Below, piece by piece: positions 13,957 to 18,142 of a stretch of DNA of 64,000 bases. The number at the start of each line of letters is the position of its first letter. The first letter of the stretch is position 1. The DNA is from Elusimicrobiota bacterium (GTDB taxonomy: Bacteria; Elusimicrobiota; Elusimicrobia; Elusimicrobiales; UBA9959): contig JAAYVG010000005.1 in NCBI GenBank assembly GCA_012517285.1, positions 1 to 64,000 of the forward strand, in the 5' to 3' direction. The notes beneath the pieces are model-generated. The model searched no databases, was not told the origin of the DNA, and worked only from the letters and a program-made list of their open reading frames with translations. A program made the translations under genes and the position numbers.

Positions 13957-15402
13957 ATGGCAAATGAAAACAATATAAGAAGAGAGATATATTCAAACAG
14001 ATCGTTTGAAGAGATAAGAATAGCTGTTATGGAAAACTCAAAGCTTTCCGAGCTTTTCTGGGAGAGGAACAGCAGTGCGAGTCTTGTTGGTAATATTTAT
14101 AAGGGTGTGGTGGAAAATGTTTTACCCGGGATATCAAGTGCTTTTATAAATATTGGTTTTGAAAAAAACGCCTATATATACATATCTGATGTTATAGGTG
14201 ATGCCCGTGGTGGTATAGATAAGGTCTTAAAAAAGGATCAGGAGGTTATGGTCCAGATAATAAAGGACGCAATAAGCACAAAGGGTATGAAGGTCACCAT
14301 GGATATAACACTTCCTGGCAGATATATAGTTCTAACCCCATTTCAAGAGCATGTGGGAGTGTCAAAAAATATAGATAATGAAGAGGAGAGAAACAGACTC
14401 TCTAAGATAATAAATGAGATAGTGGATACTTCTAAAAAATATGGTTGCGTTGTAAGAACTGAGGCTGAGGGGATAAGTGAGGAGGAGATTAAAAAAGAGT
14501 ATAAGTATCTGATAAGATTGTGGGATAGCATATTGAAAAAGTATGATAACAATCGTGCTCCTTATTTGCTCTACAAGGATATAGACCTAACCCTTCAGGT
14601 TGCAAGGGATCTTCTCTCTGAGGATATATCCATATACATGCTTGATAACAGAGAGGATTATTATAACGTACTGGATTTTGTTTCAAAGATATCACCTGAG
14701 TTTAAGGATAAAATAAAATACTATGATGCAAAGACGCCGATATTCAAGGCCTTTAACATAGAGCAGGAGATAGATGAGCTCAGAAGAATCAAGGTTGAGC
14801 TTCCGAGTGGTGGTAGCATAATAATACAGGAGGCTGAGTCGCTGTGTGCAATAGATGTGAACACAGGTAGATACACCGGTAATAAATCTCAGGAGGAAAC
14901 TGTCACACAGATAAACATTGAGGCGGCCTATGAGATAGCAAGACAGCTAAAGCTGAGAAACATCGGTGGTATCATTGTCATTGATTTCATAGATATGAGA
15001 AAGGCATTCAACAGGCACAAGGTTATGAAAGCCCTTGAGGATGCTGTTAGAAATGATAGAGCAAAGATAAAAATACTTCCTATAACAAGGTTGGGATTGA
15101 TAGAGATGACAAGGGAGAGAAGAAGGGAAAGCACATTTAATATGATAACTGAGGAGTGCCCTCAGTGTCAGGGCTCTGGCAAGGTGTTATCAATAGATAG
15201 CATAAGGATAAAGATTCAGAATGATATCTTAAATCTTACGATGGGAAGGCCCGGTGGAAATTTAAGGGTTGTAGTTCATCCACTTGTTATGGAGAGCTTG
15301 AAGGAAAAACAGAATATGGTTGAGAAAAATGTTCATAGAAGCATTAAAATTGTTTCTGATCCACAGCTTGTATGGGAGGATTACAGGATCATAATAGAAT
15401 AG
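13957..15402 (+). CDS. rng: Ribonuclease G (RNase E/G family)
   Basis: This endoribonuclease cleaves single-stranded AU-rich RNA and acts in rRNA processing and mRNA decay. The 481-residue protein has an N-terminal S1-like domain (VGNIYKGVVENVLPGISSAF), the catalytic DNase-I-like domain with aspartates in CAIDVNTGRYTG and VIDFIDMRK, and the zinc link CPQCQGSGK (Cys pair). It has no long C-terminal degradosome scaffold, so it is RNase G in length. An AAAGGAG site precedes the ATG. The ribosomal genes rplU and rpmA, which often follow it, are absent; a MITE-like element begins two bases after the stop. Confidence 0.94.
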   Translation: MANENNIRREIYSNRSFEEIRIAVMENSKLSELFWERNSSASLVGNIYKGVVENVLPGISSAFINIGFEKNAYIYISDVIGDARGGIDKVLKKDQEVMVQIIKDAISTKGMKVTMDITLPGRYIVLTPFQEHVGVSKNIDNEEERNRLSKIINEIVDTSKKYGCVVRTEAEGISEEEIKKEYKYLIRLWDSILKKYDNNRAPYLLYKDIDLTLQVARDLLSEDISIYMLDNREDYYNVLDFVSKISPEFKDKIKYYDAKTPIFKAFNIEQEIDELRRIKVELPSGGSIIIQEAESLCAIDVNTGRYTGNKSQEETVTQINIEAAYEIARQLKLRNIGGIIVIDFIDMRKAFNRHKVMKALEDAVRNDRAKIKILPITRLGLIEMTRERRRESTFNMITEECPQCQGSGKVLSIDSIRIKIQNDILNLTMGRPGGNLRVVVHPLVMESLKEKQNMVEKNVHRSIKIVSDPQLVWEDYRIIIE

Positions 15403-15403
15403 T

Positions 15404-15678
15404 TAGGGTTCACTGAAAAAGTCTAACGAAAGATAATTTTTCCGATGAATAATTGTCTTGATGGGAGTAGATTATTGTTTTAAAACTGCACGATTTTTAA
15501 GGTAATGTTGCAAAAACCTTGCACTTTTTTATCTTTCTTTTGGCAATAAAGACAACGCTTTTCTACTACGGCTTCGTCAGAACTCGCTTACCCCGATATA
15601 TCGGGGCTCGCTCGTTTTTTCGCCTCATAACGAAAATCATTGCTTTATTGCTCAAATAGACTTTTTCAGTGAACCCTA
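15404..15678. mobile_element. MITE-like element with 22-bp terminal inverted repeats and TA ends
   Basis: Perfect 22-bp inverted repeats occupy 15404-15425 and 15657-15678. Both contain GGGTTCACTGAAAAAGTC or its complement, and the outermost bases are TA on each side, as in TA target duplications of IS630/mariner elements. The roughly 230 bases inside encode no convincing protein but contain the palindrome CCCCGATATATCGGGG at 15591-15606. The element starts two bases after the rng stop. A 26-base relic with the same ends joined head to head lies at 49499-49524. Small non-autonomous transposon is the best reading; IS630 affiliation is inferred only from the TA ends. Confidence 0.7.
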
Positions 15679-15834
15679 CTCAATTTTTTTGAGAATGCTA
15701 ATTTGATAAAATGATAGTATATAAGACAGTGATCAGCGAAACAGTGAACAGTGGTCAGTGATCAGTGAATAAGGTGTTTTCCTTTACTGCCCACTATCCA
15801 CTACGCACTGATCACTGATTAGCTGGAGATTAAT
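15679..15834 (+). repeat. GATCAGTGA-type simple and inverted repeats upstream of amiC
   Basis: After the MITE comes a CTCAA/TTGAG hairpin with T loop (15679-15693), then a segment made of repeated CAGTGATCAGTGA words and their complements (CACTGATCACTGATT near 15807-15821). The same kind of word occurs at about 13918-13940. The ribosome binding site of amiC (CTGGAGA) follows. With the MITE this fills the whole 432-base gap after rng; no gene is seen in it. Confidence 0.55.
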
Positions 15835-17355: not shown

Positions 17356-18142
17356 CCCTCCAATAGGAATCTTTGACTCTGGGCTTGGAGGGCTTACAGT
17401 TTACAGAGAGTTGAGGAAAATCCTACCATCAGAAAATATTATATATTTTGGTGATACTATGAGGGTTCCATATGGCAATAAATCGACAGAAAGCATAAAA
17501 ATATTTTCATCAGAGATTTCACAGTTTTTGCTATCGCTCGGTGTTAAGATGATAGTGGTGGCATGTAATACCGTATCATCAACATCACTTGACATAATAG
17601 AGAGCATAACAAAGCTTCCTGTTGTCGGAGTTATTGAGCCGGGTGTTAAGCTTGCTATTAAAAAGAGCAAAAATAAAAAAATAATAGTTATCGGCACAAG
17701 AGCAACTGTAAACAGCCACTCATATAAAAACAAGATAGAAGAAAATGATCCAACCATTGATGTCATAGAAAAGGCCTGTCCGCTTTTTGTTCCGATTGTT
17801 GAAGAAAACTTTGTAAATCACAAAGCATCGCTTTTGATTGCAGACGAGTATCTCGGTGAGTTTAAAAGCAAGGATTATGATACCATAATCCTTGGCTGTA
17901 CCCATTATCCACTTATTAAAAACTTGATAAAAAAGGTCTTGAGTGATATAAATATTATTGATTCGTCAAAGGCCTGTGCTGGTTATGTCAAAGACATACT
18001 CACAAACAATAATATGCTTTCTAAAAATGATGGAGATGGCTGGACTGATTTCTATGTCAGTGATAAGCCACAGAACTTCATGGAGTTAGCATATAGATTG
18101 GCTGGTGTTAAAATATGTAAAATAAATATTAAAAGGTTTTAA
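17336..18142 (+). CDS. murI: Glutamate racemase
   Basis: MurI supplies D-glutamate for peptidoglycan precursors in the cytoplasm. The 268-residue protein shows IGIFDSGLGGLTVYREL with the catalytic-site Asp14 and Ser15, FGDTMRVPYGNKS, VVACNTVSS with catalytic Cys77, GVIEPGV, and LGCTHYPLI with the second catalytic Cys188 and His190. Length is standard. The start lies inside the end of amiC (20-base overlap), so these two wall genes are tightly coupled. Assignment is secure. Confidence 0.96.
   Translation: MKTRTNNPPIGIFDSGLGGLTVYRELRKILPSENIIYFGDTMRVPYGNKSTESIKIFSSEISQFLLSLGVKMIVVACNTVSSTSLDIIESITKLPVVGVIEPGVKLAIKKSKNKKIIVIGTRATVNSHSYKNKIEENDPTIDVIEKACPLFVPIVEENFVNHKASLLIADEYLGEFKSKDYDTIILGCTHYPLIKNLIKKVLSDINIIDSSKACAGYVKDILTNNNMLSKNDGDGWTDFYVSDKPQNFMELAYRLAGVKICKINIKRF

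Follow-up and report, generated by a model that had tools for sequence, protein, structure and literature searches.

Directly behind the ribonuclease gene rng of an Elusimicrobiota bacterium lies a stretch of 275 bases whose two ends are perfect inverted copies of each other, and the question raised by this locus is what kind of element it represents and which transposase could have brought it there. It was analysed as part of a window of 64,000 nucleotides, the whole stretch of DNA under study, which lies on contig C25 of a 1.96-Mb genome in 52 contigs, designated here as G000. A first-pass annotation had described it as a MITE of the IS630/mariner type. From comparisons of its ends and flanks across genomes, we conclude that it is very probably a MITE with the ends and the target footprint of the IS5-family elements recognized by the NF033578 profile, and that it would be mobilized in trans by a transposase of that type.

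Much of the original structural description was confirmed. An inverted-repeat search showed that 15404-15425 and 15657-15678 are perfect reverse complements (22 nt, 100% complementary) separated by 231 nt, and in the window the 22-mer of the arms occurs at just these two places at up to 3 mismatches, the expectation from 100 shuffles being 0. The ORF list of the window contains no frame of at least 60 aa inside the 275 bases, in agreement with the claim of a gene-free interior. Also as reported, the listed start lies two positions past the end of rng, the stop codon TAG occupying 15400-15402 and a single base, T at 15403, preceding 15404. The claim of a 275-bp element bounded by TA was right as to the TA on either side but not as to the extent: the outer TA lies outside the element and is the inner edge of a target duplication of 6-7 bp, so that the element proper spans 15406-15676, is 271 bp long and has 20-bp perfect ends (Table 1). 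Between the MITE and the next gene, at 15727-15820, the window also holds two CAGTGATCAGYGAA units and a 13-bp inverted repeat.

Table 1. Features of the MITE and its surroundings, in window coordinates
Feature	Position	Strand	Basis
MITE proper, GGG...CCC, 271 bp, without ORF of at least 60 aa	15406..15676		Boundaries from 34 paired copies of the same genome; aligned with 17 other copies
Left terminal inverted repeat, GGGTTCACTGAAAAAGTCTA	15406..15425	+	Inverted-repeat search; 18-base core has 126 genome matches at up to 3 mismatches
Right terminal inverted repeat, exact reverse complement of left	15657..15676	-	Inverted-repeat search
Left flank TAGTTA, presumed decayed target duplication, holds rng stop TAG	15400..15405	+	Placed as in other copies; stop at -6 from element
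Right flank TACTCA, presumed decayed target duplication	15677..15682	+	Placed as in other copies
Internal segment ACTGCACG...TTGCAC, similar in place and sequence to the IS5-type leader in G041 and to the G025 MITE	15485..15524	+	Local alignment of family consensus
Palindromic right half with inner hairpin CCCCGATATATCGGGG, module differing between subfamilies	15540..15655		DNA fold z -4.5
rng (Rne/Rng family ribonuclease), element at its 3' end	13957..15402	+	ORF; TIGR00757 450 bits vs cut-off 326; orthologues 64-88% identical in 25/25 relatives

The genome of the window contains many relatives of this element. Apart from partial copies, 19 near-full-length matches were found in G000 at 86-100% identity, a number that includes the window copy and two matches truncated at contig ends. 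The 18-base end core GGGTTCACTGAAAAAGTC gave 126 matches at up to 3 mismatches versus 4 for the reversed control. These numbers support the earlier view of a non-autonomous mobile element. The search for the ends in the genome and its relatives that had been suggested thus yielded many copies in G000; few relatives have end matches. Among 101 genomes, G000 included, DNA similarity to the MITE was detected besides the own genome in G010 and G013, as short stretches, and end matches at up to 1 mismatch occurred in five genomes besides the own. No match was obtained when plasmids were searched with the MITE DNA or IMG/VR with the 18-base end, and no paper on the family was noticed in a literature search that was not aimed at its sequence. 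The dozens of copies form a new family of a known kind of mobile element: the window element is short and non-coding with 20-bp perfect ends, and its family is dispersed in multiple copies, with target duplications and, after rng in relatives, empty sites.

Within the family, related ends enclose varied interiors. In an alignment of 18 copies, 5 carry the CCCCGATATATCGGGG version of the central hairpin, 12 the ACAGACTACTTTGTAGTATGC version and 1 an unrelated interior. Pairs of ends within 700 bases of each other, in 20 targeted stretches of G000, delimit elements of 106 to 591 bp, plus one doubtful pairing of 635 bp; all of these are MITE-like, and no autonomous element was recognized by eye among the end matches in these stretches. 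The 591-bp relative (L077) contains a 201-aa frame, for which no Pfam match was found. Four contigs (C2, C11, C25 and C42) start or stop inside copies, and longer repeats may therefore be missing from the assembly. At one locus (L014, just left of 1503; G000:C6 about 17520-17550), a MITE copy directly adjoins the apparent end of a second element (GTGGCCCCTAAATA|GGGTTCACTG), in a tandem or nested arrangement.

The flanks of these copies reveal the footprint of insertion. We compared 34 paired copies, drawn solely from fetched loci and not from all 126 end matches, and directly outside GGG and CCC an exact duplication of 6 bp was present in 16, of 7 bp in 3 and of 5 bp in 1; the rest had one mismatch (3 copies) or no duplication (11 copies). 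Exact duplications of 6-7 bp were thus observed in 19/34 pairs, versus a mean of 3.2 and a maximum of 8 in 10,000 shuffles in which left flanks were paired with right flanks of other copies. At least three pairings (L032 733-1367, L069 and L079) are doubtful; they were kept in these counts and dropped from the 31-element count of gene ends given below. The six-base duplications have a strong preference in sequence, 14 of the 16 being of the form TAnnTA and 8 of these TAAATA. Because exact duplications of 6-7 bp adjoin GGG and CCC across copies, the TA that had been taken for the target is merely the inner edge of a longer duplication. In the window copy itself a duplication is presumed to have decayed, the flanks TAGTTA and TACTCA differing at 2/6 bases.

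The proposed insertion at the end of rng is supported as well, since the rng stop falls in the presumed target duplication and the rng loci of the relatives lack the element: no end match was found within 500 bases after rng in 25/25 relatives, including the congener G001, in which rng is 88% identical and 47 bases without the element separate its stop from the next gene. A gene-end position is shared by other members of the family. In 8/31 copies, an open frame of at least 120 codons has its stop within 9 bases of the element, and in 4 of these 8 a TAG stop spans the junction, with TA supplied by the target and G by the element. Such placement fits an A/T-rich target combined with selection against insertions inside genes, and a special targeting mechanism is not needed; A/T-rich target sites in which a stop codon is present or is completed help to explain why a quarter of the examined copies sit right at gene ends.

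Ends and footprints of this kind are found on complete insertion sequences elsewhere. Contig C42 of the relative G041 (L158 2825-4415) carries a complete IS with ends GGGGCC(A/G)CTGAAAAAGTC, flanks TATCTA/TAGCTA (one mismatch in 6) and a transposase of 449 aa. This protein passes the IS5-family profile NF033578 (1.4e-97, 327.5 bits vs cut-off 275) as well as the cut-off of PF05598 (DUF772), and stays below the cut-offs of NF033593 (ISNCY, 1.8e-42) and NF033551 (IS1182, 2.4e-16). A plasmid search with it returned relatives in 392 records, of which five were read (34-36% identical). All five elements have exact duplications of 6 or 7 bp of the form TA..TA, counted from GGG and CCC (TAATTA, TAGTTA, TACGTTA, TAGTTA and TAACATA), and one or both of their ends read GGG..GCTGAAAAA or nearly so in four elements and GGG(T/G)CTGCTGAATGA in one. 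The window family has the terminal inverted repeats of this IS5 type together with its duplication length and sequence preference, 6-7 bp bounded by TA.

A scan of a genome collection for TAGGGKTCACTGAAAAAGTC gave 22 loci, against an estimate of roughly one match by chance for this collection size and even base composition. One of these, in Bacteroidetes GWF2_29_10, has the exact end of the window copy, TAGGGTTCACTGAAAAAGTC, following a decayed transposase of IS5 type, which aligns with the G041 protein (P0001) in two pieces at 38% and 32% identity, with 38% over residues 145-419; a single end is seen there. Four other loci (two in one bacterium MAG and one each in Nitrosotenuis and Melainabacteria) have neither a second end nor such a transposase on the locus. 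The remaining 17/22 belong to the Flavobacteriales MAG S010_51 (L269-L290), where 15 share one common interior and define another MITE with GGGTTCACTGAAAAAGTC ends: its 12 complete pairs are 222-224 bp long, and 9/12 have an exact 6-bp duplication.

A further MITE family, in G025 (L140-L155), has left ends GGGGGCACTGAAAAAGTC and right ends GGGTCTGCTGAAAAAGTC, lengths of 58-268 bp and 6-bp duplications in 5/7 pairs, and several contigs stop inside or at its copies. The interior at its left end is clearly related beyond the ends to the leader of the G041 IS (score 97.5 vs 27.2 +/- 4.8 in shuffles), in an alignment that takes in the hairpin ACTGCACGG..CCGTGCAGT immediately upstream of the transposase start. 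For the window family the match is modest, its consensus aligning locally to the G041 leader and to the G025 MITE with P values of 0.0015 and 0.0005 in mononucleotide shuffles. The leader hairpin has z scores of -4.0 in the IS and -3.2 in G025, and +0.4, not significant, in the window copy. These similarities speak for an origin of the MITEs in the left end of such an IS, and do so more strongly in G025 than in the window family.

The transposase itself was not encountered in the genome of the window. Neither the G041 protein as a query at E up to 10 nor the NF033578 profile had a match in G000, and the congener G001 likewise yielded no transposase of the NF033578 or P0001 kind; the partner of the MITE is therefore inferred from other genomes. 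The query is an effective one, as it gave matches in 54/101 genomes of the order, in 53 of these 54 to just the N-terminal domain or to fragments. Also without a match in G000 were PF13358 (DDE_3; control positive in 3/14 named genomes), the profile bearing on the suggested search for an IS630-like transposase with the same ends, and PF13751 (control positive in 1/14 genomes). The sole G000 match to PF01609 (control 9/14 genomes), at C6:62075 (L061), was rejected as a candidate, there being no end match at up to 3 mismatches on its locus. The source transposase may have been lost, or it may be hidden in an assembly gap or in collapsed repeats of the 52-contig G000. Near a contig end of the same genome lies a fragment of an ISL3 family transposase (L112 1214-1774, G000:C47 98213-98773; NF033550 at 144 bits, short of its cut-off of 180).

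Assignment to an NF033578-type source has to be weighed against other readings of the same locus. The first-pass annotation saw an IS630/Tc1-mariner MITE, placed in a TA by an IS630-like transposase with a 2-bp TA duplication, and the TA bounding the 22-mer and preceding most copies is what such an element would present. The repeat in the flanks, however, reaches 6-7 bp in 19/34 pairs, DDE_3 is without a match in G000, and in Bacteroidetes GWF2_29_10 the identical end lies next to a transposase of IS5 type, so that we have given up this assignment as extremely improbable. More generally, TA beside inverted repeats is insufficient to call an IS630/mariner MITE, and such a call requires a comparison of flanks across many copies. 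Mobilization by a different DDE family with comparable ends, such as ISNCY or IS1182, is also very unlikely. The relatives do hold other DDE transposase genes, and the G041 transposase scores on both the ISNCY and the IS1182 profiles, but below cut-off in each case, NF033578 alone of these three passing its curated cut-off; nor is there a PF13751 match in G000. In 18 stretches read around other NF033578 matches, paired ends were seen in three (L255, L258 and L259), all of the form GAGCCTGTC(C/T)GACATAA with CTAG duplications, and none of the 18 had ends like those of the window element.

The remaining alternative would dispense with mobility altogether and see in the stretch a structural RNA or a regulatory element conserved at the rng 3' end. 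As RNA, the window copy does fold very stably (-86 kcal/mol, z -7.9), which is expected of any element with long inverted ends. Dispersal of copies through the genome with target duplications speaks against this reading, as do the lack of an Rfam match at E up to 1 and the relatives, where conservation of an RNA at rng, which the earlier annotation had named as evidence against a MITE, was contradicted by the result of no end match after rng in 25/25. We assign it next to no probability. As RNA the window copy could, judging from its predicted fold, terminate or protect the rng transcript; most likely the element has no function beyond its own mobility.

The matches of the G041 query in the order include a short stand-alone protein, here called X (L161-L189, L217-L245), which in 54/101 genomes corresponds to the first 130-140 residues of the transposase at 41-54% identity. 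It is found at one place per genome, except for two in G058, and two members tested contain DUF772. The catalytic part is missing, since just 13-46 residues follow the match in the X loci examined. In ten loci read, the neighbours were thymidine kinase (tdk) in 9 and a TolB-like gene in 7, as identified by NCBIfam for thymidine kinase (one tested), by TIGR02800 below cut-off for the TolB-like gene (two tested) and by eye for the others. A tree of 49 rows placed 42 X rows on one side of a branch (support 94/94, from a rough bootstrap), largely following genera. X looks like an anciently domesticated transposase domain. It was not found in the genome of the window, and it is absent between tdk and the TolB-like gene in G000, G001, G007 and G008. 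A link between the presence of X and MITE load was considered and found no support: G001 has neither X nor an end match, and G025, G010 and G013 have both. It is highly unlikely that a domesticated X has kept the ability to bind GGGnnCACTGAAAAAGTC-type ends and restrains or exploits elements that carry them, and that its loss in the G000 lineage allowed a burst of MITEs.

Returning to mobilization by an NF033578-type transposase, the pathway would be as follows. The IS5-family enzyme would bind the GGGnnCACTGAAAAAGTC ends in trans and join the mobilized element to a staggered 6-7 bp cut at an A/T-rich site, and gap repair would then create the duplication. The window copy would have landed on TAGTTA, overlapping the stop codon of rng and leaving the gene intact, and an internal deletion in such an IS was probably the origin of the family as a whole.

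Comparison with known systems places the element as follows. MITEs of the IS630/Tc1-mariner type have TA beside their inverted repeats, a 2-bp duplication and a DDE_3 transposase; the window element resembles them in the adjoining TA, but neither the 2-bp duplication nor the transposase was found for it. Among the classical IS5 subgroups, target duplications measure 2-4, 8 or 9 bp. Closer counterparts are the IS5-family elements of the NF033578 type (transpos_IS5_1), such as ISMae6 and ISAcma17 in plasmid records, which have ends GGG..(A/G)CTGAAAAAgt and exact, TA-bounded duplications of 6-7 bp; unlike these, the window element has no transposase. The S010_51 and G025 MITEs share the end motif and the 6-bp duplications. 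Their second end differs from the first, and the S010_51 interior, compared by eye, has no visible similarity to that of the window family, whereas the G025 interior is partly similar. BrickBuilt and MITE464 of Porphyromonas gingivalis are likewise short, multi-copy, IS5-related MITEs, whose ends resemble those of IS5-family elements from that species; their ends differ in sequence from those described here (GAGACC...), and BrickBuilt duplications are reported to vary (CT, GAAA, AAAAA) (PMC4596501). The shared end and the TA-bounded footprint of 6-7 bp are thus documented for one IS5 group and three MITE families.
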